A model generated the notes under the pieces. That model saw nothing but the letters and a program-made list of their open reading frames with translations, had not been told where the DNA came from and searched no databases. A program made the translations under genes and the position numbers. This document shows positions 419 through 41,703 of a DNA stretch of 64,000 nucleotides, piece after piece. Location: assembly GCA_023511625.1 (NCBI GenBank), contig JAIMBD010000007.1:1-64000 (forward strand). The letters are read 5' to 3'. The stretch's first letter is position 1, and each line of letters opens with the position of its first letter. The DNA is from Bacillota bacterium. GTDB lineage: Bacteria > Bacillota > Sulfobacillia > Sulfobacillales > Sulfobacillaceae.

Positions 419-443
419 CAACGATGGCTGAGGATGTTCTCGA

Positions 444-522
444 TTCACGGCAAACTTGTCGCAAGGCAGGGACGCAAAGCCACGGGCCCGCCCCTGGGGC
501 GGGCAGCCGGGTTGCCGAGAGC
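444..522 (+). ncRNA. Class I cyclic-di-GMP riboswitch aptamer (GEMM-I)
   Basis: The sequence shows the GEMM-I core in order: CGGCAAAC at 448-455, a short P2 hairpin with a TTG/CAA stem, GGGACGCAAAGCC at 469-481, a GC-rich P3 hairpin (CGGGCCCGCC with its complementary arm), then GCCGGGTTGCCGA. Aligned to the Vibrio Vc2 aptamer, the ligand-specificity position 20 is G, which points to c-di-GMP rather than cGAMP, and the A47-equivalent in ACGCAAAG is kept. About 85 bases separate the aptamer from the downstream start codon. A perfect 7-bp hairpin at 562-587 lies in this expression platform, but no U-tract follows it, so the mode of control (termination or translation) is unclear. Confidence 0.9.
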
Positions 523-606: not shown

Positions 607-2724
607 ATGCGGTGGGGACCGAGCAGGATCGCGCGCATCAGATGGCTGGGAATGTGGATGGGGGCCATCGGGTGGGCTTTTGGCGGATGGCTTGGGTTCG
701 GGACGCCCTGTCCAACGGTGGCCGCCGCTCAGGTCCAGGCGGCCACGTGGGTGAGCCGCGACACCTTTGGCGTCAACGTCGGCACCTGGGACCAGCAGCT
801 GGCCCAGCCGTCTACCATCGGGGCCTTGCAGCGCCTTGGAATCGGGTGGGAGCAGTTTCCGAACCCCGGGGGCGTCTACAACTGGATGACCAACCAGGCG
901 CTCGGCCCCAATGGGCAGTGGTCTCCGCAGCCGGTGTCGCTGACTCGGTGGGGCCACATCTTGAGCGCCACCGGTGAGCAGGGGCTCTATCTCGTCCCCT
1001 ACGGATTTAACCCCACCGGGACCGCCGGCGAGCCGGTCTCTGACGTGGTGCAGCTCACCCGATTCGTGGTGGCGCACCACCTGCCGATTACGGCTATGGT
1101 CATCGGGGCCGAGGAGTATCTCGGCGGCACCATCAACCTCCACCGCGACCGCTCTCCGGAACACTACGCCAAGTTGGCCGCCCAAATGGCTCAGGCCATC
1201 CACGCCGTGGACCCGGCCATGGCCGTCGGCGTCGACGTGGACGTGCCCCTGAACCCCTCGTTGCCCAACCCGGTGGCCGAAGCCTGGAACCGCGCGGTGC
1301 TGACGACCACGGCACCGTACGTGCAGTTTGTGAGCATCCATGTCTACCCCGTGCCCGAGATCGTCTCCAACGTCGACCTGCTGCAGGCCCTCCACAGTTA
1401 CATCCGCGCCGACATGGCCTACGTGCGCGCGGCCCTCAACCGCTATGCGCGAGGCTTTCCCCTGGCGGTGTGGGTGACGGAGTTCAATCCCTACAACGGG
1501 GCGTCGGTCCAAAGCGTGGAGCCTATCTTTGCCGCCGCCGCCACCGAGGGCCTCTTGCTGTGGGCGCATTTTGGGGCGCAGCGCGTCTTTTGGTGGAGCC
1601 TGCACGGCGATGCCAACCCGCCCCTACCCCTCGGCAGTCCGGTCCAGGCCACCGGACTGGAGACCAATCCCCATGCGCCCTTCGGGACCTTTGGCCTCCT
1701 GAGCGAGGCCATCCCCCCGCAGCCGGCGCCGCTCAACACCCCCTATCCAGCCGGCCAGGCCATCGCCCAGCTGATGGGCTGGGTCGGCCAGGGGGCGCAG
1801 CTGGTCCTCGCCCCCTGGTATCCCACTGCCCACGTGCTCGGGTTTGAGATCGCGCGTCCGGGGAAGGACACCTGGGTCGTCATCAACGCCGCCCACGCGC
1901 CGCGCACCGTGACAGTGGGGTCAGAGCGCCACACCTTGGCTCCCGGAAGCCTCTGGGTGGTCCAAAATCCTCCGGTCGCGCCGACACTTGCGACCGGCTT
2001 CCGCCCGAGCCTGCCTCCACCAGCGATTACAGCAGCAACCTTCGATGTGGCGACGGGGACCTTGACCATCACCGGGTCGCATTTTGGCGCCGAGCCGCCC
2101 GTTCAGTCAGCGCCGAGTGGCGGCGTCGATCAGGCGCGGCTTTTGGTTGAGGACACCGCCAATGGGGCCCACTACGGGTGGACGGCGCCGGGAGAGATCG
2201 ATTGGTACGGCGTAGACATCCGCAGTTGGACTGACCGGCGCATCGTGCTGGCTTTTCCGTCCAGCCCCCCTGCCCCCGACACCCCGCTGACGGTGAGCTT
2301 CTGGCACCGGGTGGCGGGACAAGCCTTGCGCGAGGCCGAGGCGCCGGTGGCGACCCGGTGGCTGGGCGGGGCGACTTCGCCTCCTCGCATCGACTCGGCC
2401 CGATTTTTGGACCCGGTGACCCTGGCCGTCTCGGGTTCCGACTTTGGGCCCCCGCCGCCCACAGTGCCGGCGACCCAAGGCGGCGTGGACCAGGCCTGGC
2501 TGCGCATCGACGATGCAAAAACCGGCGCCCACTACGGGTGGCGTTCGGCATCGGAGGTCGATGCCTACGGGATCACGCTGGTGCAGTGGACACCGGACCG
2601 CATCGTGGTCCGCTTTGCCGCCAGCCCTCCCGCCCCAGGCGATCCCCTGCGCGTGGAGTTTCCTGACACCGGAGCGCCCATGTTCCCTCTGGTCATGCCC
2701 GGTCGGGCCGTCGGCGGGGGTTAA
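607..2724 (+). CDS. Secreted glycoside-hydrolase-like protein with two C-terminal repeat modules, under a c-di-GMP riboswitch
   Basis: The 705-residue protein starts with a signal peptide (basic MRWGPSRIARIR, hydrophobic core, AAA region near residue 40). I chose ATG 607 because it follows GGCGGAGGG and gives a clean signal; the frame is open further upstream through the riboswitch. Residues about 45-460 resemble a TIM-barrel, cellulase-like secreted domain, rich in aromatic residues, with VTEFNPYNG as a possible catalytic Glu strand. That reading is an inference. After a Pro-rich linker come two related modules of about 100 residues (nt about 2020-2355 and 2370-2700). Both carry GGVDQA, GAHYGW, a D-x-YG-I/V segment and RIV with a Pro-rich end, like IPT/TIG-type surface repeats. 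It probably acts outside the cell on a polysaccharide or matrix. It is convergent with the exosortase/glycosyltransferase operon. Confidence 0.75.
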   Translation: MRWGPSRIARIRWLGMWMGAIGWAFGGWLGFGTPCPTVAAAQVQAATWVSRDTFGVNVGTWDQQLAQPSTIGALQRLGIGWEQFPNPGGVYNWMTNQALGPNGQWSPQPVSLTRWGHILSATGEQGLYLVPYGFNPTGTAGEPVSDVVQLTRFVVAHHLPITAMVIGAEEYLGGTINLHRDRSPEHYAKLAAQMAQAIHAVDPAMAVGVDVDVPLNPSLPNPVAEAWNRAVLTTTAPYVQFVSIHVYPVPEIVSNVDLLQALHSYIRADMAYVRAALNRYARGFPLAVWVTEFNPYNGASVQSVEPIFAAAATEGLLLWAHFGAQRVFWWSLHGDANPPLPLGSPVQATGLETNPHAPFGTFGLLSEAIPPQPAPLNTPYPAGQAIAQLMGWVGQGAQLVLAPWYPTAHVLGFEIARPGKDTWVVINAAHAPRTVTVGSERHTLAPGSLWVVQNPPVAPTLATGFRPSLPPPAITAATFDVATGTLTITGSHFGAEPPVQSAPSGGVDQARLLVEDTANGAHYGWTAPGEIDWYGVDIRSWTDRRIVLAFPSSPPAPDTPLTVSFWHRVAGQALREAEAPVATRWLGGATSPPRIDSARFLDPVTLAVSGSDFGPPPPTVPATQGGVDQAWLRIDDAKTGAHYGWRSASEVDAYGITLVQWTPDRIVVRFAASPPAPGDPLRVEFPDTGAPMFPLVMPGRAVGGG

Positions 2725-2776: not shown

Positions 2777-4420
2777 TCAGGGGGCGTTGGGGCCAACGGT
2801 GTACAACCGCCAGCCCGATGACCCCGGAAAGGCGCGGATCAAGGTGGCCCAGGGCTCCTGGCCCGCCCATAGACCAGGCCACTGCCGGTTGACGGCGTTG
2901 AGAGCGGCTATGCCGGTCGGCTTCGGCACCAAGATGGCGTCGACCCGCCCGCGCGGGTTTTGGAGGATGGCGCGAAAGGCGTAATCCGAGGTGACGATGA
3001 ACTGGCGGGGATGGTCGGCGCGGATCACCACCGGCCAGTCGGTGAAGGTGTCGGCCAGGATGGTGACATGAGGGTGGCGGTTGACCCACTGGACGACTGG
3101 TGTGACCGAGGTAAAGGGGTCCTGGGTACCGACTTCGCCGCGCGCCAACTGGGCCAAAACGGCGCCGTCGGGGTAGCCCCACCCCGGGGTCTCAAGGGTC
3201 TTGACAGTGCCCACGTCTGCAGAGAGCACTGCCAAGAGAAATGCGACCCCCAAGGCGCTCCGCCACCCCCGGCGCGAGGGCAGGCGGGTCCGGAGTTGGC
3301 CTGCGGCGAACGCCGTCAGCAAAAGCCCGTTGGGAATATTCGGCAGAAAGTACCGGTCCCACTGGCCGAGGTGGCCGAGGTAGAGGAAGGCGGCTTCCAG
3401 GCCCACGGCGCCCACCGTGGCCCCCACCAAGACCGGCGCCCGCGGGTCGCGCCAGCGGCCGAAGGACAAGGCGAGGGCCACCACCAGCGCCGGGAGGAGC
3501 GGCCAGAACAGGAGCGTAAAGTGTCCTAGATAGCTTAAGGTGCCCAGGAGACTGTGCTTTGCGGCCGCCAGCGGGTGCGAACCATAGGCGCCGGTGGCGA
3601 TCTGGGCCAGGTTGCCGTAGTCCGATTTCAAGAAGTAGAGCGGGTTTTTCATGATGGCCCAGTTGAAGTAGATCCAGACTCCGGCCGCCCATCCGATGGG
3701 GGCGGCCAAGAGGATGAGAGCCCCCTGAACCTGTCTGGCCGGCACCCGTCCCCATAGAGCTCCGGCCAGCCCCGCCATGAGGCCCACAGTCAGGGGAATG
3801 GCTTCATAGCGCACTCCGAACCCGACCATCAGCCAGAGCGCCGCCCGAATCACGTAGCGCAGCTCACGGGTGGTGACGTAGCCCATCACGCCGTTTACGG
3901 CGCCTAGGTCACAGGTGGCCAGCATGAGGTCGGTCATGCCGTTGGCCCCATAGAGCACCACCAACGGGTTCAGGGCGTAGAGCGCGGTCGCCCCCCAGCG
4001 CAGAGCCGGGGGAAGCCCAAGTCGCCCCACGAGGTCGTAGAGGGCGCGCAGACCCAAGGCACCGAAGGCGGCACTGACTACCACCCCCGCGACGCCCCGG
4101 CTGACGACATCGGGAACCCAGGGATGCAGGATCGTCATGGGCAACGCGAGGAGGCTTGGCAAGGGGTTCCAAATGAAGCCGATAGCCCCAAGGTGGGGAT
4201 CGCGGCTGAAGAGCACGTAATAAGCGTTGGCCACCCGGGATAGGGCGTCCGCCGCAAAGTAGTGGAAATGGTAGATGAGGACCAAGCCTACGCCAAGGTA
4301 GAGGAAGAAGGCCAAGGTCCAGACCCAGCCCGGAGGATGTCCGGCCAGCGAGGCGTCTTGCGACGACACCGAGCGACCCGTCGGGGATGGGAAGGGCAGC
4401 GATTGGGGTAGCGAGCTCAC
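2777..4420 (-). CDS. Polytopic membrane protein resembling GT-C (ArnT/PMT-like) glycosyltransferases
   Basis: The 547-residue protein has about ten to twelve hydrophobic segments, then a soluble C-terminal part of about 130 residues. The first loop after TM1 contains YHFHYFAADALSRVANA, where an acidic residue in the first extracytoplasmic loop is the usual catalytic position of GT-C enzymes that use polyprenyl-phosphate sugars. The family is not firmly recognised. GTG start 4420 is preceded by AAGAAAGGA, which lies inside the end of the preceding gene, so the genes are tightly coupled. It is the last gene of the exosortase operon, so transfer of lipid-linked sugars to a polysaccharide or to the exosortase target is a reasonable guess. 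Confidence 0.65.
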   Translation of the reverse strand: MSSLPQSLPFPSPTGRSVSSQDASLAGHPPGWVWTLAFFLYLGVGLVLIYHFHYFAADALSRVANAYYVLFSRDPHLGAIGFIWNPLPSLLALPMTILHPWVPDVVSRGVAGVVVSAAFGALGLRALYDLVGRLGLPPALRWGATALYALNPLVVLYGANGMTDLMLATCDLGAVNGVMGYVTTRELRYVIRAALWLMVGFGVRYEAIPLTVGLMAGLAGALWGRVPARQVQGALILLAAPIGWAAGVWIYFNWAIMKNPLYFLKSDYGNLAQIATGAYGSHPLAAAKHSLLGTLSYLGHFTLLFWPLLPALVVALALSFGRWRDPRAPVLVGATVGAVGLEAAFLYLGHLGQWDRYFLPNIPNGLLLTAFAAGQLRTRLPSRRGWRSALGVAFLLAVLSADVGTVKTLETPGWGYPDGAVLAQLARGEVGTQDPFTSVTPVVQWVNRHPHVTILADTFTDWPVVIRADHPRQFIVTSDYAFRAILQNPRGRVDAILVPKPTGIAALNAVNRQWPGLWAGQEPWATLIRAFPGSSGWRLYTVGPNAP

Positions 4421-4427
4421 GCGGCGG

Positions 4428-4640
4428 TCATCCTTTCTTGGTGATCTTGGCGATCTGGGGGCGGGCGTCCTGCGGGGGGCGCGAGGCAGGACGGGCGCTC
4501 GACAAGAGGGCGTAGACGACGGCGAGGCCCAAGAAGGCCAGGGCGGGCAGGATATCCAGGACCCAGAACATGCCGACCATGCCGGCGAGAAAAATGCCGA
4601 CCATCAGGGCCGTCAAGCCCAGCGAAAGCGCTGCGCGCAT
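4428..4640 (-). CDS. Small two-helix membrane protein of the exosortase/glycosyltransferase operon
   Basis: This 70-residue protein starts at ATG 4640 behind AAAGAAAGGAG. It holds two hydrophobic helices (about residues 5-24 and 28-45), then a polar tail ending in KITKKG. No family is recognised. It sits 7 bases before the GT-C-like gene and 50 bases after the family 2 glycosyltransferase. A role as a small membrane subunit or flippase-like helper of the neighbouring glycosyltransferases is possible but unproven. Confidence 0.6.
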   Translation of the reverse strand: MRAALSLGLTALMVGIFLAGMVGMFWVLDILPALAFLGLAVVYALLSSARPASRPPQDARPQIAKITKKG

Positions 4641-4690
4641 GAAGGGTCTCCTTTCTTTAAGCTCAGCTTCGCGTCTCAAAAACTCCCAAC

Positions 4691-5440
4691 TCAGGGCCTG
4701 TCGGCCAACCAAGCGGGGGGCCGGTCGTCGTTCGGAAACCAAGCCGTGTGGGAGAGCCGCCGGCTCAACGCCCAAAAATCCCCAAGACAGCGGGCCATCT
4801 CGCCGAGTCCGGCCCGTCGGGGACGGACCTGGCGCTGGACTACGGGGAACTCGGCGATCTCGAGGGTGCATTGACGCGCCCACCAGAGCGCCTCGAGGTC
4901 AAAGAGCCAGCCATCTTCCTGGCCGAGGGTCAAGATGTCGCGGGCGAACCATCCTGGAAAGAGTTTGACGCCGGCTTGGGTGTCGTTCAGGCCTAAGCCC
5001 AACCCCCGTTCGATGAGCCAGTGCGCCAAGCGGGAGCTCCACCGCTCGTGCCAGCGCCGCCGGTCGCCGGCACGCCGACCGATGCCCACCCACCGGTGGG
5101 GGTGGCCGCTGCGACAGGCGGCGTCTACCATCGCCGTCAGGATCGCGGCGGGAAACTCCAGGTCGGCGTCGAGGAAACCTACCAGGTCCCCGCGACTGCG
5201 GGCGAACCCCTGGCGCAGGGCGGCTCCTTTGCCGGGAGCGCCGGGGTTGGCTGTCACCGACAGCGGGCAGCGGACGGCAGCGGTTAAAGCCGCCGAGGCC
5301 GTGTCATCCTCGGAGTGGTCGTCGACGACCACCACATCGTAGGAGACCGACAGGGGAGTGAGGGCGCGGTCGACCGCTTCGATGGCGACGGCGATATGCG
5401 GCGCCTCGTCGCGCGCGGGGATGACGATGGTGACGTGCAT
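4691..5440 (-). CDS. Family 2 glycosyltransferase (polyprenyl-phosphate sugar synthase-like)
   Basis: The 249-residue protein has a GT-A nucleotide-binding fold from the N-terminus: TIVIPARDE, then VVVDDHSEDDT, GKGAALRQGF and FLDADLEFP with the metal-binding DAD motif. These motifs are typical of the dolichyl/polyprenyl-phosphate mannose or glucose synthase branch of GT2. ATG 5440 is chosen over a frame extension to 5470 because AAAGGAGG stands 7 bases before it. No C-terminal membrane anchor is evident, which fits a soluble or peripheral enzyme. Its product, a lipid-linked sugar donor, could feed the GT-C-like protein at the end of the same operon. Confidence 0.85.
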   Translation of the reverse strand: MHVTIVIPARDEAPHIAVAIEAVDRALTPLSVSYDVVVVDDHSEDDTASAALTAAVRCPLSVTANPGAPGKGAALRQGFARSRGDLVGFLDADLEFPAAILTAMVDAACRSGHPHRWVGIGRRAGDRRRWHERWSSRLAHWLIERGLGLGLNDTQAGVKLFPGWFARDILTLGQEDGWLFDLEALWWARQCTLEIAEFPVVQRQVRPRRAGLGEMARCLGDFWALSRRLSHTAWFPNDDRPPAWLADRP

Positions 5441-5474
5441 GCGAAAGCCTCCTTTACACGGCCCGTGCACCCGA

Positions 5475-7676
5475 CTAGCCGGGCATTCGGGGCAGGGGTT
5501 GTAGTGCGGCCGGGTCCGGTGGCAAGGGGCCGGTCAACGGTTCCGGGGTCCACTCCGGAGACAAGCCGTGTTGGGTCTTCTCCCAGAGCGACGGGTGGCG
5601 GATGAGTTGCAGCACGGCCTTCCAGGCGGCAAGGGACATGAGCCCCCAGTAGAGCGGGGCCGTCAGACTGTGCTCGACGAGGTCCCACTGTTCAAGCCGT
5701 GCCGCCCCGATAGCTTGGAGGTAGGCGAAGAGAAAATTGCCGGCCAAAAGGTTGAGCATACCCACGTAGTAGATCCCGGGCGGAAAGAGCCGGCCGATGG
5801 CGCTACCGGGGGCGAGGAACCACAAGGTGGTGAGCGCCCAAAAGAAGGGGTTGAAGACCAGGGGCAGCACCGTGCCCAAAAGCGCGGCCTGCATCCCCAA
5901 AAACCGCTTCCAGCCGAGTTCAGCTAGGGTGGCGCGCGGTGTACGCATGTGCACGAGCCAGGTCTGCAAATAGCCCTTCACCCAGCGGGAGCGTTGGCGC
6001 ACCCAGTTCACGAACTCGGAGTTGGCCTCTTCTTGGGTGTAGCTGTTGACGATGGTGGTGCGGTAGCCGGAGCGGTACAGGCGGATACCGAGGTCGGCGT
6101 CTTCGGTGACATTGTAGGCGTCCCACGCTCCGATCTGCTCCAGGACGTTGCGGCGGAAGTGGTTCGAGGTGCCGCCCAAGGGAATGGGCAGGTCGAGCGC
6201 GTACAGTGCCGGCAGGTAGAGGTCGAACCAGGCCGCGTACTCGGCTGTAAACCACCGAGTGAGCAGGTTTTGCCGCCGGTTAAAGTAGGTGAGCTTGGCC
6301 TGGACGCAGGCGAGGTCCGGGCCGGAACGTTGGAAGACGAGGTAGGCCTTTTTCAGCTGATCGGGGTCGGGGACGTCTTCGGCGTCAAAGATGGTGACGA
6401 ACTCCCCCCGCGCGCGCTCTAGTCCGAAGTTGCAGGCTTTGGGCTTCGTACGAGGGTCCGCGGGGGGAATGGTCACCACCTCGACGTAGCTGGGAAAGCC
6501 GGTGGCCAAGGCTGCTGCGCGAGTCGCCTCGTCGTCGGCCTCGATCAACAGCTGAACGTCGAGGCGGTCCTTCGGCCAATCGAGCCGCTCCAACGCCTGC
6601 TTTAAGGTCGGCAGGACCGCCGCCTCGTCTCGCACCGGGATCAGGACGGTGTAGCGGGGAAGAGGGGTCTCGGAGAGGGCCGCCACCTCTTCGGGGGTCA
6701 CTGTGGCTACCACCTCGCGGTCGGTGGCCAGGATGACCATCCAGGCGCGGAACCCCACCAGGGTGCCATAAAGCAAGGTCATGGCAGCGGTTGCGGCGAT
6801 CCACGGCCAAATCCCGAAGATTGCGCTGCTGGCCGCGAGTGCCAACCCCAACGCAAGGCCGACGAAGGCCTGCGGACGCGTCAACACCCGGCGGGCCGAA
6901 AGATGCGGCGACTGCGCTTCAAGGCGGTCGCGGCTCGAGGCGAGGTCGGCGGGGCCGAAGCGCTGGTCCATCACCCAGTCCAGGTCTCGGGGGCCGGCCA
7001 CCACGGGGATGATGGTCCGGCGCACTTGGCGGCGCAGGCTTAAGAGGGCGAAGCGGTCTTCGGGGTCTTCCATGGCCACCACCAAGCGGTGGCGGTCCAC
7101 CAACACCGGCGCCACGCGGTGCCAACGCCAGAATCGCGCAGGGAACGTCTTCCATACCGCGTCCAGTTCCGGGTCGGAGGGCATGGACCGGCCGAGGAGA
7201 TCCACCCGCCCAAGGTCCCACTGCCGAGCCACGATATCCGCCACTTGGCCTCCGTGCAATCGGCCCGCTGCCCGCAGGATGTCCCCGATCCGACCGCCGG
7301 TCTTGGGCTGTTGGGCCAAGTAGCGGTCGACCTCGCTCGGGGTGACATAGCCCAATGCCACGGCCCACTCGCCGAACCGACGGCGCCGAGGAAGTTGGGG
7401 TCCGTCTTCAGCGTCCGGAAAACAGCGCGCGAGGGCGGCCTCCCAGCCGGCCCGGCTGGTGCGGTATAGAGAGGGTGCCGGGTCGAAGTGTGCCCACAGC
7501 CGTCGGGTTTCGGGACTGGGGGGCTCGAACACGGCGAGGCAAAGCGTCGGGCCGTCGAAGCCGAGCGGAAGGGCACCGGTGGCAAGACACCAGCGCCGTC
7601 CGAAAGAGCAGGCCAGCTCGCGGTCGATGGGGTCGACAAAGCGCCCATCGGGCCCGACGGTGACGTCTAAGTCCAT
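5475..7676 (-). CDS. Membrane family 2 glycosyltransferase with N-terminal tandem MshEN c-di-GMP-binding domain (NfrB-like)
   Basis: The 733-residue protein has two parts. The N-terminal third holds two 24-residue MshEN motifs, residues about 100-123 and 129-152, separated by 5 residues. Each has the R-x-G, G at position 10 and final Gln pattern (RFGEW...LAQQ and RIGDI...VARQ). This tandem layout is the known c-di-GMP-binding signature of MshE/GspE N-domains and NfrB. After a pair of membrane helices comes a processive GT2 domain with IPVRDE, FDAED, TEDADLG and QRSRW, then four or more C-terminal helices, as in cellulose-synthase-like enzymes. It probably polymerises an exopolysaccharide when c-di-GMP is bound. 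ATG 7676 lies 15 bases after GGGAGGA; a CTG 9 bases further upstream would be better spaced. The 125 bases before it hold no recognised element. Confidence 0.88.
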   Translation of the reverse strand: MDLDVTVGPDGRFVDPIDRELACSFGRRWCLATGALPLGFDGPTLCLAVFEPPSPETRRLWAHFDPAPSLYRTSRAGWEAALARCFPDAEDGPQLPRRRRFGEWAVALGYVTPSEVDRYLAQQPKTGGRIGDILRAAGRLHGGQVADIVARQWDLGRVDLLGRSMPSDPELDAVWKTFPARFWRWHRVAPVLVDRHRLVVAMEDPEDRFALLSLRRQVRRTIIPVVAGPRDLDWVMDQRFGPADLASSRDRLEAQSPHLSARRVLTRPQAFVGLALGLALAASSAIFGIWPWIAATAAMTLLYGTLVGFRAWMVILATDREVVATVTPEEVAALSETPLPRYTVLIPVRDEAAVLPTLKQALERLDWPKDRLDVQLLIEADDEATRAAALATGFPSYVEVVTIPPADPRTKPKACNFGLERARGEFVTIFDAEDVPDPDQLKKAYLVFQRSGPDLACVQAKLTYFNRRQNLLTRWFTAEYAAWFDLYLPALYALDLPIPLGGTSNHFRRNVLEQIGAWDAYNVTEDADLGIRLYRSGYRTTIVNSYTQEEANSEFVNWVRQRSRWVKGYLQTWLVHMRTPRATLAELGWKRFLGMQAALLGTVLPLVFNPFFWALTTLWFLAPGSAIGRLFPPGIYYVGMLNLLAGNFLFAYLQAIGAARLEQWDLVEHSLTAPLYWGLMSLAAWKAVLQLIRHPSLWEKTQHGLSPEWTPEPLTGPLPPDPAALQPLPRMPG

Positions 7677-7801
7677 CCAGGGCAGCGGAGATTCCTCCCA
7701 GCGGTCTTCAGGTCGGGAAACCACGCAGCAGCACCACCTTTTCACGGTTGACCGACTGATCGGTGCACGGAGGGCGCGAAGCGAGCGAGAGGAGGACACG
7801 G

Positions 7802-9424
7802 TCAAGCATGGACGGCAGCGGAGTCCGAAAGGTTCGGGTGGGCCGTACTGAGCGCAAGGCGGTCAGCGATGGCGACCAGGGCCTGCTCGGTGGCCCGTAG
7901 GGTAAGGGAACCGGCAAGGGTTGGGGATAGGGCGACGGCCGTGGCAGCAGGGCGACCTGGCTGCGTCGGCCATTTGGCGGCCGGAAAGGCGGCCAGGGAC
8001 CAGCGTAGGTACCGAACTCCGGCCGGCCCCTTCACGGCTCCTTCCCACTCGATGTCGACGTAAGTGGGGCGCGGTCCTCCGACCTTGTCCGGGGCCATGG
8101 CCACCACGTAGAGGGTGGCGGGGTTGCCGGTAGAAAGGGTCAGGGACTGGGCGTGCACGATGGCCGAGCCGTGATAGAGGAGGCAATCTTGAAACCCATA
8201 GGCTTCAAGGCGGCCGAAGTCTGGGGTCATCCAGATCTCGGCCAAAGCCTCGGCGCCGTGCGGGCTCGTGTACAGTTCGGCCACCGTGGCCGAGCCCGGG
8301 CCTAAGACCGAGCTTTCGTTGGCCCGGTAGGTGACTTTGGACCCAAAACCCGAGAGCTCGGGGAAAAAGGCATCGATGGCTGTGGTGGGGACGGTCACCG
8401 GCCGTCCCAAGGATCCAGCAGGCAGGGACCAGACGGGCAGCAAGGCGGCGAAGAGGCCTAGGCTCAGCGCGCCGCCAAGGCCGCACCGACGGCGGCTCGG
8501 GAGGGCCAGGAGGGGGCGCGCCGGCCAAGGCTCGGCCAGAAGGCCGAGGGGCCGGGCGAGCGCCATCAGGGTCAATCCCAGCGCGGCGAAGAAGAGAAAC
8601 CCCAAGCTGGGGTGCAGGACCCCGAAGGTAAATCCTGAGCCGAAGACGTGGACGGCGCCTACCAGCACGCCTAAACGCAGCCAATTGGACACCAAGGCCC
8701 CTGCTAAAGCTACGGCCACCATCGCGAGGCGACTTGGGACGGGGCCTTTCCAGAGGGTCAAGAACAGCGGGAGCAAAATTGCCGCGCCCAAAAGGCTGTC
8801 CGCTCCGCTGCAAGCCTGGGCCACAATCACCGGTACCCAGTGTCCGCGGTGGGCTACGACAAAGGTTCCGGTGGCGGCGTCGACCGTGCGCAGCCACGGC
8901 ACCCAGCGGGTGGCCGCCTCCAATCCGCGAATGGCGGCGGCCACGAGGGTGCCTTGAACGGGGTCGACCAGCGACTGAAAGACCGGAGGCCACGCCAGAA
9001 GCCAGTAGGCCAAGGGGGCGACCAGGCGCCGGGTGATGCCCACGCCAAACCAAAGCCAAGCCATGCCGAGCGCCCAGGCCGGCCACAACAAAAGCCCCAT
9101 GGCGTGGCCGACCAGGGTCACCGGCCAAAGCCGCGGCCCGAGGGCGAGGATGCCGCCGACCAGAAGAAGCGCCCCACCGCCGACCAACAGATCGACCTCG
9201 CGGTCATCCGGGTAGGCATGCGGCGTCGTGGCCAAGGTGACCGCGGCCCAGGCCACGGCCAAGACCGGGATCCACACCAGGTAGGCGACGGGCGTGTCGG
9301 CCAGAGCCTGTTGCCATAGGGGCTCGGCATAGGCCACGGCCGGGGCAAGCGCCAGGAGCGCCCACCCCCACAGGAAGCCCCGGTAGCCCTCGGAACCCAC
9401 CTTGTTACCTACGGCCGCAGCCAT
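7802..9424 (-). CDS. Exosortase with C-terminal EpsI-like extracytoplasmic domain
   Basis: This 540-residue protein is an exosortase/archaeosortase-family membrane transpeptidase. Eight or so helices span residues 15-295. The expected catalytic triad is visible: Cys205 in QACSGADS, Arg250 in SNWLRLG and His271 in HPSLG; WPPVFQSLVDP is also family-like. A further helix (about 317-333) leads to a C-terminal soluble domain (about 335-540) with LYHGSAIV and alternating strands, resembling the EpsI domain often fused to or next to exosortases. ATG 9424 lies one base after the stop of the upstream gene, whose product carries a tripartite C-terminal sorting tail. The gene pair therefore looks like an enzyme with a dedicated substrate. 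Exosortases are best known from Gram-negative bacteria with PEP-CTERM proteins. Confidence 0.87.
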   Translation of the reverse strand: MAAAVGNKVGSEGYRGFLWGWALLALAPAVAYAEPLWQQALADTPVAYLVWIPVLAVAWAAVTLATTPHAYPDDREVDLLVGGGALLLVGGILALGPRLWPVTLVGHAMGLLLWPAWALGMAWLWFGVGITRRLVAPLAYWLLAWPPVFQSLVDPVQGTLVAAAIRGLEAATRWVPWLRTVDAATGTFVVAHRGHWVPVIVAQACSGADSLLGAAILLPLFLTLWKGPVPSRLAMVAVALAGALVSNWLRLGVLVGAVHVFGSGFTFGVLHPSLGFLFFAALGLTLMALARPLGLLAEPWPARPLLALPSRRRCGLGGALSLGLFAALLPVWSLPAGSLGRPVTVPTTAIDAFFPELSGFGSKVTYRANESSVLGPGSATVAELYTSPHGAEALAEIWMTPDFGRLEAYGFQDCLLYHGSAIVHAQSLTLSTGNPATLYVVAMAPDKVGGPRPTYVDIEWEGAVKGPAGVRYLRWSLAAFPAAKWPTQPGRPAATAVALSPTLAGSLTLRATEQALVAIADRLALSTAHPNLSDSAAVHA

Positions 9425-9425
9425 G

Positions 9426-10307
9426 TCAGGACGTCACCCGCCGGCGCCGGGCCCAAACCCACGCCAAAGGACCGCCGAGGAGCAGGGGGCCGGCTGCGGC
9501 CCACGGCAACTCGGGCAGCTGTCCGGCCGGGGATTCCACCGAGGAGCTGAAGACGCTCATGGCGAACCACTCGCTGGGATCGATGGGGGCGGTGGTGTAC
9601 CCTGGCTGGTTGTTGGTGGTGCCGAGGTCGATGGTCACATTGCCGTCTGGCCCCACCCAGCCATACCAGATCCCCTCTACGTTCTGGGGGTTGTCAAAGG
9701 GATTGGCATCTCCGGGCCCGCCTTGGGCTCCGACCAAGACCACAAACTGGCCGGGTTGGGGAGCCGGGCTGCACCCGGCGGTATTCCAGATCGCTTGGTA
9801 GCCTGCGGGGGACAAGGCCGCGTCCCACTGGATACTGATGGTCCCACAGGTCGGGCCGTTGAGCTGCCCCTGTTGCCCAGAGGGGTCCGAAGGGCCGGGG
9901 TCGCTGTTGGACCCCCCGCTCCCCCCGTGGTTGTCGGCGGGGCGAAGCTCCATGGGGTGCACGGTGGCCGACGATTGCAGGTTTTGACCCCAGAAATAAC
10001 CCCCGCCGCTATCCCCACCTGGAGGGGGCGGCGAAGGAGGCCCATCCTGGGGGACGACCTGGACCTTTTCGATGGTGAACGACGAGCCCCCCGCATCCGG
10101 TGCCACCTCGGCATACCATCCGGGCGCTTGGCCCGGCCCTGAGACGATCGACGTCTGAAGGCTCTGATTGGGCCCGGGCGTAACCGCGATCCACCACGGG
10201 GTGGCCGGGCCCGAGGACGCCGCAAAAGCGGTCCCCGAGAGCAGAAAGAGGCCGGCTGCGGCCAAGGCGCTGGCTCCGCGGACTGAGGGGTGGGTCTTTG
10301 GGCGCAT
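9426..10307 (-). CDS. Secreted protein with C-terminal exosortase-type sorting tail (LPELPW-TM-Arg)
   Basis: The 293-residue product begins with a signal peptide (MRPKTHPSVRGASALAAAG..., cleavage near GTAFA-AS). The middle is Gly/Pro/Asn-rich with two cysteines and segments such as IWYGWVGPDGNV, so it is likely an extended surface or matrix protein. The end has the three-part layout of a sorting signal: LPELPW, a 15-residue hydrophobic stretch and ARRRR close to the terminus. The motif is not canonical LPXTG or PEP, but it lies directly before an exosortase gene. ATG 10307 is the only start giving a clean signal peptide, although AAGGAGGG stands about 20 bases upstream, which is unusually far. 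The first gene of the operon, it probably encodes the target of the following enzyme. Confidence 0.82.
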   Translation of the reverse strand: MRPKTHPSVRGASALAAAGLFLLSGTAFAASSGPATPWWIAVTPGPNQSLQTSIVSGPGQAPGWYAEVAPDAGGSSFTIEKVQVVPQDGPPSPPPPGGDSGGGYFWGQNLQSSATVHPMELRPADNHGGSGGSNSDPGPSDPSGQQGQLNGPTCGTISIQWDAALSPAGYQAIWNTAGCSPAPQPGQFVVLVGAQGGPGDANPFDNPQNVEGIWYGWVGPDGNVTIDLGTTNNQPGYTTAPIDPSEWFAMSVFSSSVESPAGQLPELPWAAAGPLLLGGPLAWVWARRRRVTS

Positions 10308-11408: not shown

Positions 11409-13232
11409 TCACCGCTCGGGAGCGGGGGGCAGAAAGAGGTGTTCGGCCAGCCGGGTCAAGGCGCGCTGATGGGTGCGGAAATAGGTGGCTCGGGATACGT
11501 TCAGCCGTTCCGCCAAGAGTTCGTGGGGACCCTTGCGCTCCACGTAGTACAGCGTGAGCAGCGCGCGGCCGGACGGCCACTCGCCGAGGTCGGCAGAGCT
11601 TAAGGCGTCCAGCAGCCAATGGCGCAACCGAACAGGGGACAAACGCTCCGGCCACAGTTGGGCCAGGTCTGAGTGTTCGAGCTGGTCGAGGTCGTGGATG
11701 GCCAACAGCGCTTCGCGAGCGGCCTTGAAGAGCCGGTCGCGGGGCGCTGGGACATCGGGATACAAAAGGCGGCTGAGCCAGGGGCCAAGGCGGCGGGGGC
11801 CTAGGGCGAGCTCCCAGCGCTGAGGGTCGTGGGTCTCAAAGCCGTAGGCCTGAAACCACCGAGTGAGCAGACGAGCGTCGACCCCTGAATCGTGCAGGAC
11901 CTGCGCTTCGACCACCAGTCCGCGCGCCAGCACGGCCGAGGCTAAAAGCACCGTGGCGAGCGCCTCCCAGGCGTGCGGGCAGCCTGGGCTGAGCGCGATG
12001 CGCTCGACTACGGCGGGACCAGGCTCGCTGGCTCGGGGAAACTGCCCTTCTGCCGACGCCAACACCTGCCCGCTGGCGTCGGTCAACACCACGGCCTTGC
12101 GGGCTGTGGCGGCCGGCCAGTGGACCTGCCAAGACGTCGGCCACGCCTGACCGGCCAACACCCTGGGCGCCAAGACCGTGCGCAGGACCTCTTCGGCGAT
12201 GACGGCCGTGCCGGCCCCCTCGGCCCAGGCCACGAAGCGGGCCGCGTGCCACCGCCAGTGGCGGGCCGCCCACGGGCGCAGTTGGAGCACCGCTGGCTCG
12301 AGTTCCGCGCGCAGGGCCCCGCGAAATCCCCACAGCCCTGGACCCCGCGACTCCACCAGCGGGAGGGTACAGAGTCGCTCCCAATGGCGTGCCGTCAAGT
12401 CGGAGCCGACCACTGCGCCAAGCAGCGGCCGGGTGAAGGTGGGAAAAAGCAAGGCCGGTGCCACCACCGCATCCAGGGATTCGTCTCCGAGCCCGGCCCG
12501 CCAGTTGAGTCGGCGGGATCCCGGGTGCAGGGCGCGTTCCATGAACAGGCTCAAGGCTTGGCCGGCATCCAGGGACTCTACCACCGTCGGGTGCTGGTTA
12601 AAGGTCGCGGCCAGCCTCGACGCCAGGGTGGGAGATCCCCCCGAGACCAACTCGCCCAGTGCCGCAAGCCACGTCGGCATGCCGGCGCTGGCCAGATACC
12701 GCCGGGTGACCTCAGGCGCCCAGGGCAGGACGGAGAGAATCCGCCGCTGCCCCCGCACGTCGGGCGTCTCATGCCACAGCGCCGCAAACGGCTCGCGCCC
12801 GATGGCCATCACCAGCGTGCCGGGCCGAAGGCGCGGCCAGACCGTCTCGCACAGGTAGGCATCGAACTCGCGCCAGGCGTCGTAGTGGTCGATCACCCAG
12901 ATCAGGGGGCTGGGCGCTTCGCGCAGGGCGTCGATGGGATCCCATCCGGCCCCGTCGAGACCTAGCGCCTGCGCCAGGTGCTGGCCCACTGCTTGGGGAT
13001 GGGGGGCCACCTCGTCGGCGGCTGTCCACAGAATCGGAGGATCGGGAGCCATGGCCTTCAGGAAGGTGCGCACGAGGAGGCTCTTGCCGACCCCGGACGG
13101 GCCCTCGACTCCCACCACCACCGGGGCCGCTGCCGCGGCCCGCCAGGCTTGCTCCAGGCTCTCCATCTCGGCTGCGCGGTCAAACAACCGGCGTGCCGAC
13201 GCCAAGGTCATCCCGTCCTGTTCTCGGTTCAC
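11409..13232 (-). CDS. STAND/AAA-type ATPase transcriptional regulator with C-terminal HTH
   Basis: The 607-residue protein has a P-loop (GPSGVGKS, about residues 44-51), a Walker B-like LIWVIDHYD near residue 110, and the arginine-rich region expected of MalT/STAND-type NTPases. The middle is helical and may hold a sensor. Near the C-terminus, LAERLNVSRATYFRTHQ is a helix-turn-helix. No fixed ligand domain is recognised. GTG 13232 lies only two bases after GGAGG, so ATG 13211 may be the real start. The gene lies between the diguanylate cyclase and the HTH/degenerate-GGDEF protein, all on one strand, which suggests a shared regulatory circuit. Confidence 0.65.
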   Translation of the reverse strand: MNREQDGMTLASARRLFDRAAEMESLEQAWRAAAAAPVVVGVEGPSGVGKSLLVRTFLKAMAPDPPILWTAADEVAPHPQAVGQHLAQALGLDGAGWDPIDALREAPSPLIWVIDHYDAWREFDAYLCETVWPRLRPGTLVMAIGREPFAALWHETPDVRGQRRILSVLPWAPEVTRRYLASAGMPTWLAALGELVSGGSPTLASRLAATFNQHPTVVESLDAGQALSLFMERALHPGSRRLNWRAGLGDESLDAVVAPALLFPTFTRPLLGAVVGSDLTARHWERLCTLPLVESRGPGLWGFRGALRAELEPAVLQLRPWAARHWRWHAARFVAWAEGAGTAVIAEEVLRTVLAPRVLAGQAWPTSWQVHWPAATARKAVVLTDASGQVLASAEGQFPRASEPGPAVVERIALSPGCPHAWEALATVLLASAVLARGLVVEAQVLHDSGVDARLLTRWFQAYGFETHDPQRWELALGPRRLGPWLSRLLYPDVPAPRDRLFKAAREALLAIHDLDQLEHSDLAQLWPERLSPVRLRHWLLDALSSADLGEWPSGRALLTLYYVERKGPHELLAERLNVSRATYFRTHQRALTRLAEHLFLPPAPER

Positions 13233-13373: not shown

Positions 13374-14930
13374 CTATTCGGCGAGACTGGTGTCGTAAAG
13401 CCGCCAGCCGTCCTTGCCGCTCCGCTTGGCGGCGTACATGGCCAGATCGGCCGCGTGCAGGAGGCTCTCTCCGTCCAGACCGTCTTCGGGGTAGCGGCTG
13501 AGTCCGGCGCTGATGCGCACGCGCACCGGGACGAGGCCCGGTGCGGCGAGCGGTTCGCCCATGGCGGCCAAAAGGCGCGCCAAGAGGCTTTGGGCGTCGC
13601 CGGCGGTGTTGACGTTCTGCACGAGAACGCCGAACTCGTCGCCGCCCAAGCGGGCCACCACGTCACCGGGGCGGAAGAGCCGCTGCAGGCGCTGACCCAC
13701 CTGACTTAACACCCAATCGCCGTGGCGATGGCCGTGGGTGTCGTTGAAGTGCTTAAAGTCGTCCAGGTCTACCAGGAGCACCGCAAAGGCTGCGTCGCCT
13801 TGGGTCATCTCCCGTAGGCGCTGGCGAAAATACCGGGGGTTGGCGAGACCGGTGAGGCTGTCTTGGTACGCCAGCCGGGAGATGGCATCGGTGTTGGCCC
13901 GCTCTTCGGTGACGTCGCGCAAGACCCAGAGCGCAAAGAGGTCTTCACCCACGTCCATGGCTTCGGCCTCGACCGCCAAAAGGCGCCGTTCCCCCCCTTG
14001 GGACAGCACTTCGGCCTCAAACGCGTTATGGAGTTGCTCGCCTTGCATCAGAGTGCGCAAGCGCTCCTGCACCAGGTCGCGGTGGGTGGGGAAGAAAAGC
14101 TTTTCCGCCATGGTGGGTAACCGCCCCACGAGTTGCACGGCCGCAGCGTTGGCGTCGAGGATTTCTCCGCTGGGGTCGACCAGTACCATAGGAGCGGGAT
14201 TGCTACTAAAGAGCGTCTGGTAGCGCTGGGCCCGCGAGGAGACCAGGGCGTAGCGGGTGACGGTGCGCCGCATGAGGGCGATCCAGACCAGCATGCCGGC
14301 CAGGTAAGGATAGGGCGGCAGCCAGGGCGGTGCAGAGGCGGGCAACATCACCCCCAGCACGAGGTCGGCCACGATCAAGGTCAGGGCGCCCCAGAAGAGC
14401 CCCAAGAGGCGGCCTCGCTGGTTGGGATGGGTGGCGCGGCCAAGCCCGTACCCGAGTCCGATGGCCGTGGCCGAAGAGACCACCACCGCGATCTCCATGG
14501 CGCGGTGAAAGCGCGCCCCGTAGATGGGCTCCCACCAAAACCCGCGCCAGACAAACCCGTCGACATTGTAGAGGTTGAGGCCAGAGATCACTGAAAACAG
14601 CGCCAAGGCCATCCAAACCCAGGTCACGACTTCCACCAGCCAACGCGGCCAGCGGCGTTCCCACCGCAGTACCTGGAGGTGGATGCGGATGCCGACGCCG
14701 GTGAGGACGGCGCCTAAGGTGCCGAGTCCCCACACTGCCACTCGGTAAGCGCCTGCCGGCCACAACTGGGTCAACAACACCGTGAACAGCATGGCCAGCA
14801 GGATGAGGTGTTCGGCAAACAGCCACCGGCTTATGGTGGACCGGGGGTTGCGTTGCACGAGCTCGATGCCCCAGTGGAAGAGCCACAGCATCGGGACACC
14901 GAGGATGAGCAGGATCCAGGCTGCCTGCAT
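13374..14930 (-). CDS. Membrane diguanylate cyclase (7TM-PAS-GGDEF)
   Basis: The 518-residue protein begins with about seven helices (residues 1-220, in the style of the N-terminal 7TM region of histidine kinases). A PAS domain follows (about 225-335: TLFSSNPAPMVLVDPSGEIL), then a GGDEF domain (about 350-510). The active site is intact (GGDEF at 429-433). Five residues upstream is RPGD (420-423), a full inhibitory I-site, and the DLDDFKHFNDTHG metal and nucleotide loop is present. It should make c-di-GMP from two GTP and be feedback-inhibited. No EAL domain is attached. The start at ATG 14930 follows AGAGGTG. A sigma-A promoter stands at 15043-15071. It could supply the ligand for the nearby riboswitch, MshEN glycosyltransferase and HTH protein. 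Confidence 0.9.
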   Translation of the reverse strand: MQAAWILLILGVPMLWLFHWGIELVQRNPRSTISRWLFAEHLILLAMLFTVLLTQLWPAGAYRVAVWGLGTLGAVLTGVGIRIHLQVLRWERRWPRWLVEVVTWVWMALALFSVISGLNLYNVDGFVWRGFWWEPIYGARFHRAMEIAVVVSSATAIGLGYGLGRATHPNQRGRLLGLFWGALTLIVADLVLGVMLPASAPPWLPPYPYLAGMLVWIALMRRTVTRYALVSSRAQRYQTLFSSNPAPMVLVDPSGEILDANAAAVQLVGRLPTMAEKLFFPTHRDLVQERLRTLMQGEQLHNAFEAEVLSQGGERRLLAVEAEAMDVGEDLFALWVLRDVTEERANTDAISRLAYQDSLTGLANPRYFRQRLREMTQGDAAFAVLLVDLDDFKHFNDTHGHRHGDWVLSQVGQRLQRLFRPGDVVARLGGDEFGVLVQNVNTAGDAQSLLARLLAAMGEPLAAPGLVPVRVRISAGLSRYPEDGLDGESLLHAADLAMYAAKRSGKDGWRLYDTSLAE

Positions 14931-15071: not shown

Positions 15072-15194
15072 CGCAAAACCGCTCGAGATACCCCAAGCGA
15101 GACCCGAGCCGACAGTTGGCCCCAGACTGCATGGGGCGAGGGGGAGCAGTAGGGTAAGAGCAGTGGCGGCATGAAGCTGAAGAAGGAGGAAGAC

Positions 15195-15794
15195 ATGTCC
15201 ATGTCCACACGCGGTGCCAATCCGGAGTGGCGGCGGGGGCTGCGCTTTTTGGCAGTAGGAGCAGTCAACACCGGCGTAGACCTCGCGCTGTTTTACGCCA
15301 TCACGGTCCTGTGGCCGCCGCGGGGGGAGGGCTTAATCGTGGCCATCGAAGCCGCCGGCGCCTGGCTCGGCGCGAACCTCGGCGGGCGCGCCCTGCACGG
15401 GCGCATCACCTTCGGTATCCCTATGAAAGTCAAACCGTATCTGGCGGTATCGTTGGCGGCGGTAGGGTTGCAGGCGGCCATGGCGGCAGCGGGCAGTGCC
15501 GTCTTGGGGCAAGAGGGGGCGCTTCTCGGCAAGGTGCTAGGGGCCGCCATCGGGGCCGGGTTTGCCTACCGGGGGTATCGGCGGTGGGCCTTGGCCGGCG
15601 CGCCGGCGGTCCCACCGGCTCCGGCCCCGTCGGCGGCTGCCCGGGGGCAAAAGGCGGTGGCCTTACCGTCCGGTGCCCGGGGACAACGCGCGCCGGCGGA
15701 CCTCTTCAACCACCGCCTCTGCCGTCAGCCCTTCGGCGTTGATGACCGGAGCTGGCGTGACGGCATCCTCGATGCCCAAGAACCCCGCATCTGA
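15195..15794 (+). CDS. GtrA-like small membrane protein
   Basis: The 199-residue product has four predicted helices within residues 15-130, in the pattern of GtrA-type proteins (RFLAVGAVNTGVDLALFY at the start, YRGYRRWAL at the end of the last helix). GtrA proteins help flip polyprenyl-linked sugars or take part in cell-wall polysaccharide synthesis. ATG 15195 follows AAGAAGGAGG. The last 60 residues are Pro/Ala-rich, then unlike any domain. The final 44 codons are antisense to the YkuS-like gene, so the true protein may be functionally complete near residue 145. It is one of several sugar-transfer genes in this half of the window. Confidence 0.7.
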   Translation: MSMSTRGANPEWRRGLRFLAVGAVNTGVDLALFYAITVLWPPRGEGLIVAIEAAGAWLGANLGGRALHGRITFGIPMKVKPYLAVSLAAVGLQAAMAAAGSAVLGQEGALLGKVLGAAIGAGFAYRGYRRWALAGAPAVPPAPAPSAAARGQKAVALPSGARGQRAPADLFNHRLCRQPFGVDDRSWRDGILDAQEPRI

Positions 15795-40557: not shown

Positions 40558-41703
40558 TTAAGCCTGCGGATTGAGGCTCCCGGTGTCCCGCAGCGTCACC
40601 GCGACCGTGACGGTCACCGGCGCGCGGGCCAAGGCCGCGGTCCAGGTTTTCGGGTTGGGGGCAGCGGAAAAGGGGCGGGTGGCGAGGGCTTTCGGGTAAC
40701 AGGCGAAGAGGTCGAGGCGGTGGGCCTGGGACCAGCGGACAAGGGCCAGCGCGTCGTGGGCCAGCACCTCCGCCGCTCGGCGTTGGATGGCCGAGGCGCT
40801 CAGGAGCGGGCCCGTGCCATCGACCTCGTCGAGGGTGACGGCGACCTGGCCGGCGACTGTCAGGCGACCGGCAGCCAACGCGATGTGAAAGTGGCTCGAC
40901 ACCGTCTGCAGGACATACCGGCGTCCTCCGTCTTTCAGGCTTAAGAGGAGAGACGGTGCGCGCCCGGCCAAAAGGCCGTAGGTTTCGGTCTCTCGGCGGC
41001 TCCACTCTCCGGCCAGCCCCAGCGGTGTGACCACGGCGGCGCCGACCACGCTGAAGTCCGACCCACTGGCCACCCCCGGTTCTGGGCGAAGCGCCAGCAC
41101 CGGCAACACCGCCGCCTCCGCCGGCTGGTTTAACCAGTGTTCGGCGATCTGGTACATGCGCACGGGGTAGGCCCAGCCGTCGTGTTCCGCCGCCTTTAAG
41201 GTCTGGTTGAGGACCTCGACCGGATCGGGTCCTACCGGATTGGTGGTCTCGGCAAACGGCATCGCCTGGCTGCGGCTGACCAGCACCCAAAAGGTGCGGT
41301 GCAGGTAGGGGGCGCGCATCAGGCGGTCGACCAGTCCCGGCCAGCCAGGAGAACGGAGGACGGCGGGACTGATGACTACCACCCGGAGATGGGCGAAGGT
41401 CAAGGGGTTGCGGTTGGGAAAGTCGAGCCCTGTGCGGCGCAGGGCCTCCGTCACGGAGGACCCCGTCCCTTGAAAAACCCAGGTGGGGCGTTCGGCGCCG
41501 CTGCCGCTCGAAGCCCCTGGCGAATGCATCAGCTGGGGCACGTCGGATTCCACCGTGACCTGGTAGCGGCCGTGCACCCAGTCTACAGCCAACAGCACGG
41601 GAATGGTCAAGGGTTCAGGGGTAGCGATGTCCCAGCAGCCCGACAGGCTAACGGTCAACAGGGCGCACAAGACCGCCCAGGCTCCGCGCCGCCGGCCGAT
41701 CAT
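40558..41703 (-). CDS. Spore germination receptor lipoprotein, GerC type
   Basis: The 381-residue lipoprotein starts with a signal and lipobox (LTVSLSGCWD, Cys about residue 23), followed by ATPEPLTIPVLLAVDW as in GerAC/GerKC/GerC proteins. The Ger(x)C domain covers the rest. ATG 41703 overlaps the preceding stop (ATGA). It forms the third subunit of the inner-membrane germinant receptor. The chain ends 17 bases before the shared terminator. Confidence 0.88.
   Translation of the reverse strand: MIGRRRGAWAVLCALLTVSLSGCWDIATPEPLTIPVLLAVDWVHGRYQVTVESDVPQLMHSPGASSGSGAERPTWVFQGTGSSVTEALRRTGLDFPNRNPLTFAHLRVVVISPAVLRSPGWPGLVDRLMRAPYLHRTFWVLVSRSQAMPFAETTNPVGPDPVEVLNQTLKAAEHDGWAYPVRMYQIAEHWLNQPAEAAVLPVLALRPEPGVASGSDFSVVGAAVVTPLGLAGEWSRRETETYGLLAGRAPSLLLSLKDGGRRYVLQTVSSHFHIALAAGRLTVAGQVAVTLDEVDGTGPLLSASAIQRRAAEVLAHDALALVRWSQAHRLDLFACYPKALATRPFSAAPNPKTWTAALARAPVTVTVAVTLRDTGSLNPQA

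Follow-up and report, generated by a model that had tools for sequence, protein, structure and literature searches.

A candidate exosortase sorting system for PExP-tailed proteins in an exopolysaccharide locus of a Sulfobacillaceae bacterium

Organization of the locus

The subject of this analysis is a putative protein-sorting system, made up of an exosortase and the secreted proteins that carry its predicted C-terminal recognition tail, in a member of the Sulfobacillaceae (class Sulfobacillia; GenBank assembly GCA_023511625.1). It lies in the first 64,000 nucleotides of contig JAIMBD010000007.1, referred to below as the window. All genes of a run containing the target protein, the exosortase, and exopolysaccharide (EPS) functions are present on the minus strand between 2777 and 10307. 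They are transcribed in the order target, exosortase, membrane glycosyltransferase with an N-terminal MshEN domain (MshEN-GT), GT2 glycosyltransferase, small membrane protein, and GT-C-like protein, as set out in a preliminary description made from the sequence alone (Table 1). The TGA stop codon of the target is separated by one base from the ATG start codon of the exosortase, again as first described. The run fits a single operon, as the intergenic gaps are short; no promoter-like site was found in the 2.5–11.5-kb region, and terminator-like matches were not above chance.

Table 1. Features of the locus in window coordinates, with the basis of each assignment
Feature	Coordinates	Strand	Basis and remarks
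Secreted exosortase substrate (predicted), 293 aa	9426-10307	-	Signal peptide, C-terminal tail, tail profile
Sorting tail: QLPELPWA motif, hydrophobic helix, ARRRR cluster	9429-9524	-	22-tail alignment, sequence
Exosortase, unnamed family, 540 aa	7802-9424	-	Profiles, catalytic residues, predicted structure
Membrane GT2 of processive type (QxxRW) with N-terminal MshEN domain, a domain type that binds cyclic di-GMP (c-di-GMP)	5475-7805	-	Profile, motif check
GT2 glycosyltransferase	4691-5440 (or 5470)	-	Profiles, comparison with relatives
Small membrane protein, 70 aa	4428-4640	-	Adjoins MshEN-GT, conserved; 61-71 aa in relatives
GT-C-like integral membrane glycosyltransferase	2777-4420	-	PMT_2-like but below the Pfam cut-off; conserved in loci
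c-di-GMP-I (GGC) riboswitch aptamer	439-520	+	RF03167, 60.1 bits; RF01051 genome search
Secreted glycoside-hydrolase-like protein, clan GH-A-like	607-2724	+	Candidate catalytic Glu169 and Glu292; downstream of riboswitch
PAS-GGDEF diguanylate cyclase	13374-14930	-	RxxD I-site and GGDEF; homologues recur near relatives' loci
AAA/STAND-like ATPase with C-terminal helix-turn-helix, probable regulator	11409-13232	-	Recurrent near relatives' loci
GtrA/DPMS transmembrane-domain protein	15171-15794	+	Similar segment in relatives

The exosortase

The protein encoded directly after the target belongs to the exosortase/archaeosortase superfamily by curated profile cut-offs, scoring 58.5 bits against PF09721 (cut-off 25.7) and 39.1 bits against TIGR04178 (cut-off 23). 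Cys205, Arg250, and His271, the residues singled out in the preliminary description, are embedded in C205-S-G207, N247-x-x-R250, and H271-x-x-x-G275, which are invariant across 25 homologues and fall within the three motifs given for EpsH, Cys-x-Gly, Asn-x-x-Arg, and His-x-x-x-Gly (PMC1569441). In terms of family assignment, a search against the NCBIfam Xrt models, the check proposed at the outset, ended with no named Xrt model reaching its cut-off. The closest models are the general exosortase subfamily (EpsH; 54 bits, cut-off 105.6) and XrtA (TIGR03109; 47.3 bits, cut-off 208), both far below threshold.

The predicted structure (mean predicted local distance difference test score, pLDDT, of 83) consists of a helical transmembrane core, residues ~1–300, and an extracytoplasmic C-terminal domain, residues ~345–531, the model of which resembles a Mog1/PsbP-like fold. 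This assignment comes from VIA-align (Z ~8–9, up to 9.0, values that may reflect a common arrangement only), as Foldseek with the exosortase model gave no match at E ≤ 0.001. EpsI (TIGR02914), which was considered for the C-terminal domain, is absent from the NCBIfam matches of all 25 homologues, and a PDB sequence search with the exosortase returned nothing useful. A second, shorter exosortase type of ~300 residues that lacks the C-terminal domain occurs at four loci (L054, L056, L057, and L058), where it has its own tiny adjoining tailed protein (PETPYA/PQTPYA) beside proteins of ~630–665 residues with no assigned family.

The sorting tail and the proteins that carry it

The target comprises a Sec signal peptide, a low-complexity region, a conserved β-rich domain, and the C-terminal tail (GQLPELPWAAAGPLLLGGPLAWVWARRRRVTS). 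It ends in GQLPELPWA, a transmembrane (TM) helix, and RRRR, bearing out the LPELPW–TM–Arg organization first read from the sequence, and a tail-profile search of its own genome returns this tail with E = 1.3e-16. The predicted cleavage region lies at or just after LPELP. When 22 tails are aligned, as had been suggested, P-E-x-P-x-A and a later P prove invariant. The small β-rich domain is common to the tailed proteins that adjoin exosortases, including those beside other exosortases; the predicted structure of the target is poor (pLDDT 56) and too weak for a structure search.

The preliminary description assumed a single adjacent target, a view that must be abandoned, as the genome encodes at least three proteins with strong tails, on contigs C5, C16, and C3 (E from 1e-16 to 8e-12). 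A weaker tail on C16 (4e-5), which may be broken, and an LPEVAW variant on C37 are also present, and relatives have up to six tailed proteins per genome at E ≤ 0.001. These proteins have signal peptides and diverse-looking mature parts, and they are encoded at distant loci.

The frame of a tailed protein on contig C16 (G000, L102, 8701–8784; LPEAPYAAALPLAGARGLW...) seems broken, and intact relatives are found in G001 and G029. At locus L055 of G057, two similar tailed proteins (9676–10236 and 11662–12234) are accompanied by repeated exosortase and glycosyltransferase pieces, which suggests a local duplication.

None of the NCBIfam models of C-terminal sorting signals claims the PExP tail. At E ≤ 5 the 22 tails, which read PExP rather than Pro-Glu-Pro, have no match to the PEP-CTERM models or to Firmicu-CTERM; PExPT-CTERM matches one of the 22 (E = 0.0047). 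Against the LPXTG model TIGR01167 the target scores 11.8 bits, short of the cut-off of 15.9, consistent with the original characterization of the motif as neither PEP nor LPXTG.

Pairing of exosortase and tail

Among 84,980 species genomes scanned, relatives turned up in Sulfobacillus and Bacillota, plus a few metagenome-assembled genomes labelled otherwise; an alignment-based scan was what found relatives, whereas a single-sequence scan of genome contigs found none. In a draw of 398 genomes across the phylum, all four matches fell within this class, in which 33 of 154 genomes have homologues.

A PExP-tailed open reading frame (ORF) is present in the fetched flank of 32 of the 35 exosortase loci with usable flanks, and in 28 it is on the same strand less than 1.5 kb from the exosortase, where ~0.3 would be expected by chance. 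The tail pattern has a low background: reversed DNA, 950 kb in all, gave three matches, from which the chance figure was derived, and 52 kb of adjacent DNA from the same contig gave no match. The frequency of tails at exosortase loci greatly exceeds chance. Two families, f1 and f2, served to define the motif; tails of three families inspected afterwards (f19, f27, and f167) agree with it, reading TPETPYT, LPEVPYP, LPEAPLA, and TPETPYS, and the pairing is seen in five families within the class. In the genome G030 there are exosortases of two types, and each adjoins a tail variant of its own, PEVPWA and PQTPYA.

Across the 154 genomes of the class, 28 have both exosortase and tail, 5 exosortase only, 4 tail only, and 117 neither (Fisher p = 1.7e-21, a value that is descriptive only, as the genomes are related, many are incomplete, and phylogeny is ignored). 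Three of the five genomes scored as exosortase only (G057, G483, and G487) carry adjoining tails that the profile missed, leaving G036 and G037, which belong to one genus. The expectation that exosortase homologues would lie beside tailed proteins is thus borne out at all but a few loci, with that genus as the clear exception.

The distribution also bears on the enzyme that acts on the tail. With an LP motif, a TM helix, and Arg residues, and with a weak match to TIGR01167, the tails resemble LPXTG anchors, and the genome has one sortase; the tails could then be ordinary LPXTG-like signals cut by that sortase, the adjoining exosortase being incidental. We consider this very improbable. The motif is without T-G, and the co-occurrence of tail and sortase is weak (18/25 versus 14/36, p = 0.018), as opposed to the strong co-occurrence and adjacency of tail and exosortase. 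Seven genomes with tails have no match to the sortase family PF04203; G008, G016, and G020, which bear tails and are at least 93% complete, are without a sortase match; and six genomes of the order have a sortase and no tails. The sortase was rejected as the processing enzyme.

EPS genes and c-di-GMP

Of the 22 genomes with the long exosortase, 21 have an orthologue of MshEN-GT, as against 1 of the 39 that lack this exosortase. In G017 and G029 the MshEN-GT gene sits elsewhere in the chromosome, adjoining genes for the GT-C protein and the hydrolase, which indicates that the link to EPS is functional and not just positional. The claim of a dedicated exosortase/target pair within an EPS locus is supported.

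MshEN domains are defined by two 24-residue RLGxx...LxxQ motifs and a 5-residue spacer (PMC5013675). The domain in the window is canonical, with RFG...Q, PKTGG, and RIG...Q forming two motifs of exact length around a spacer of five residues. Both motif arginines are kept in 7 of 22 aligned homologues, most lacking one or both, and c-di-GMP sensing by MshEN is therefore not general. Among the homologues at L033–L052 the motif arginines are often lost and the glycosyltransferase part is conserved; Sulfobacillus may repeatedly have lost or altered the ability of this domain to bind c-di-GMP.

The aptamer upstream of the hydrolase is full-length, exceeds the RF03167 gathering cut-off of 59 bits, and scores 69.3 bits against RF01051; a search of the genome with that model found no other c-di-GMP-I riboswitch. 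It precedes the hydrolase in 17 of 17 homologues examined, mostly near exosortase or EPS genes, and in many of them a terminator-like hairpin and U-tract follow directly. The loci of more distant families yielded no riboswitch. The hydrolase, for which ATG 607 rather than 364 is probably the start, has homologues in many exosortase loci; its two candidate catalytic Glu residues are conserved, and relatives contain IPT/TIG repeats. Together, the canonical MshEN domain of the window and the conserved riboswitch–hydrolase arrangement make the case for c-di-GMP control better supported than the sequence reading alone had shown. What does not stand is MshEN sensing as a general trait.

For the remaining genes of the run, MshEN-GT probably starts at ATG 7676, and the GT2 protein is possibly a polyprenyl-phosphate sugar synthase; in relatives a segment like the GtrA/DPMS protein appears to be fused to GT2. 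The small membrane protein predicted earlier is present, most likely as the 70-residue ORF. The 151-residue ORF originally listed for it was rejected, as it overlaps the GT2 gene and homologues have 61–71 residues.

Interpretation and proposed mechanism

We propose that the window encodes a lineage-specific exosortase sorting system for proteins with PExP-[W/Y]-A, TM, and Arg tails, tied to a c-di-GMP-controlled EPS cluster (probability about 0.8). Cleavage of a group of surface proteins at their shared LPExPW/Y tail is very probably the role of the exosortase.

Several observations weigh against this proposal. The exosortases of G036 and G037 (L031 and L032) are the nearest homologues, at 53% identity, and no PExP tail was found with them; none was seen on the short contig L036 either. 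G001, G011, G018, and G485 have tails and no detected exosortase. In G018, 0.37 kb separates the tail from the end of its contig; this is compatible with an assembly gap but no proof of one, and a search for an exosortase start in those 0.37 kb was negative. In G017 and G029, whose genomes are closed or nearly closed, the synthase and hydrolase genes are far from the exosortase. The divergent neighbour in G036 and G037 has a signal peptide and, after VVPHAGGSS, a TM helix and Arg residues, with no PExP motif; it possibly carries a changed sorting signal.

The presence of an exosortase without the motif in G036 and G037 would also agree with the notion that the PExP tail serves a protein family only as a conserved anchor in the membrane and that the exosortase acts elsewhere, for example on polysaccharide or lipid, the more so as exosortases are little studied biochemically and processing of the tail is a prediction. 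This is unlikely, because the motif occurs on proteins with diverse-looking mature parts at distant loci, tracks the exosortase phyletically, and has the architecture of the PEP-CTERM, GlyGly-CTERM, and LPXTG signals.

For the proposed sorting system, gene content, conservation, pairing, multi-substrate distribution, and riboswitch conservation are observed, and cleavage, transfer, the nature of the acceptor, and the direction of riboswitch control are inferred as follows. The tailed proteins would be exported by Sec, and the exosortase would recognize the C-terminal PExP-[W/Y]-A, TM, and Arg tail. By analogy with archaeosortase A (ArtA) and sortase, the Cys-Arg-His set would cut near the motif with a thioester forming at Cys205. 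The new C-terminus would be passed to an acceptor, so that the protein leaves its TM helix and becomes fixed on the cell surface or to its exopolysaccharide. Synthesis of this polysaccharide would be the task of the cluster, through the c-di-GMP-controlled GT2 synthase, the second GT2, the GT-C transferase, and the small membrane protein, and the riboswitch-controlled secreted hydrolase may trim or release it.

In terms of the acceptor, phosphatidylethanolamine, as in the ArtA model, was set aside as unlikely by the usual route, because a search for phosphatidylserine decarboxylase (PF02666) found none in this genome and none in 22 of the 25 genomes with an exosortase that it covered. A glycan made by the neighbouring genes is a possible acceptor. 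More speculatively, and with considerable doubt, the locus may represent a multi-substrate exosortase system native to monoderm acidophilic spore-formers. Its substrates would be joined to a glycan or polyprenyl-linked glycan from the co-encoded synthase rather than to phosphatidylethanolamine or peptidoglycan, and c-di-GMP would set both the synthesis (through MshEN) and the hydrolysis (through the riboswitch) of the same polymer.

Comparison with known systems

The host is taken to be a monoderm spore-former, in agreement with the preliminary description. A gerA-type spore germination operon at 40558–44242 of the window is followed by flagellar genes, from which the host appears to be both spore-forming and motile. 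A search of the genome for Omp85/BamA gave no match, the same search being positive in seven control genomes, presumably all of outer-membrane bacteria, and we conclude from this absence that the host has a single membrane.

The system is reminiscent of PEP-CTERM/EpsH (XrtA; PMC1569441), with which it shares the three catalytic motifs, an EPS neighbourhood, and several secreted proteins with Pro-Glu, TM, and Arg tails that track the exosortase across genomes. It differs in its motif, PExP-[W/Y]-A instead of PEP, in its monoderm host, in scores that do not reach the NCBIfam thresholds for XrtA and the exosortase subfamily, and in a C-terminal domain without an EpsI match. PEP-CTERM was found in 2006 only in outer-membrane bacteria, with none in Firmicutes (Haft 2006, PMC1569441).

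A parallel in envelope type is XrtG/Firmicu-CTERM of lactobacilli (TIGR03110; PMC12854382), in which monoderm Bacillota combine an exosortase with a tailed protein and two glycosyltransferases. XrtJ/PExPT-CTERM (TIGR04200) shares the PExP core of the tail motif. The present enzyme might accordingly be a diverged member of either family, as TIGR03110 weakly matches 17 of the 25 homologues and one tail matches PExPT-CTERM. We regard this, too, as improbable. The window exosortase has no NCBIfam match to XrtG or XrtJ at E ≤ 1, its closest models lie elsewhere, XrtJ is not among the models matching the 25 homologues at E ≤ 0.01, and 21 of the 22 tails fail to match PExPT-CTERM and all fail to match Firmicu-CTERM at E ≤ 5. 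The locus also differs from XrtG sets in its several scattered substrates and in having MshEN-GT, GT-C, and a riboswitch-controlled hydrolase.

ArtA of Haloferax belongs to the same enzyme superfamily and likewise acts in a monoderm envelope. Its proposed mechanism is cleavage followed by lipid attachment, with archaetidylethanolamine as the proposed nucleophile (PMC7157517), which contrasts with the lack of PF02666 matches noted above. The particular feature of the c-di-GMP-I riboswitch here, compared with the class in general, is its position before a secreted EPS-locus glycoside hydrolase.

Taken together, we view the system as a lineage-restricted exosortase variant that would work like PEP-CTERM/EpsH and XrtG/Firmicu-CTERM and that fails their enzyme and tail model tests. 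The suggestion that it is an undescribed sorting system survives in part: no NCBIfam model claims the enzyme or the tail, but monoderm sets of exosortase, target, and glycosyltransferases are known from XrtG/Firmicu-CTERM. No name for this enzyme type or tail was found in the databases searched; a 2012 archaeosortase/exosortase survey might list a Sulfobacillus protein. A 2017 comparison of three bioleaching species, including S. thermosulfidooxidans, reported a PEP-CTERM exosortase system only in Leptospirillum (L. ferriphilum) (PMC5418355), and exosortase systems in Sulfobacillus may therefore have been overlooked.

Exosortases were described as a trait of outer-membrane bacteria, and the variant treated here belongs to a spore-former with a single membrane and has several substrates and an unnamed motif. 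Cultured hosts exist, namely Sulfobacillus thermotolerans Kr1 and S. harzensis DSM 109850, in which the exosortase reaction would be accessible with no outer membrane to interfere. The conserved riboswitch–hydrolase unit suggests that c-di-GMP controls the breakdown of the polysaccharide as well as its synthesis, and the attachment and EPS of Sulfobacillus-type acidophiles are relevant to biomining.

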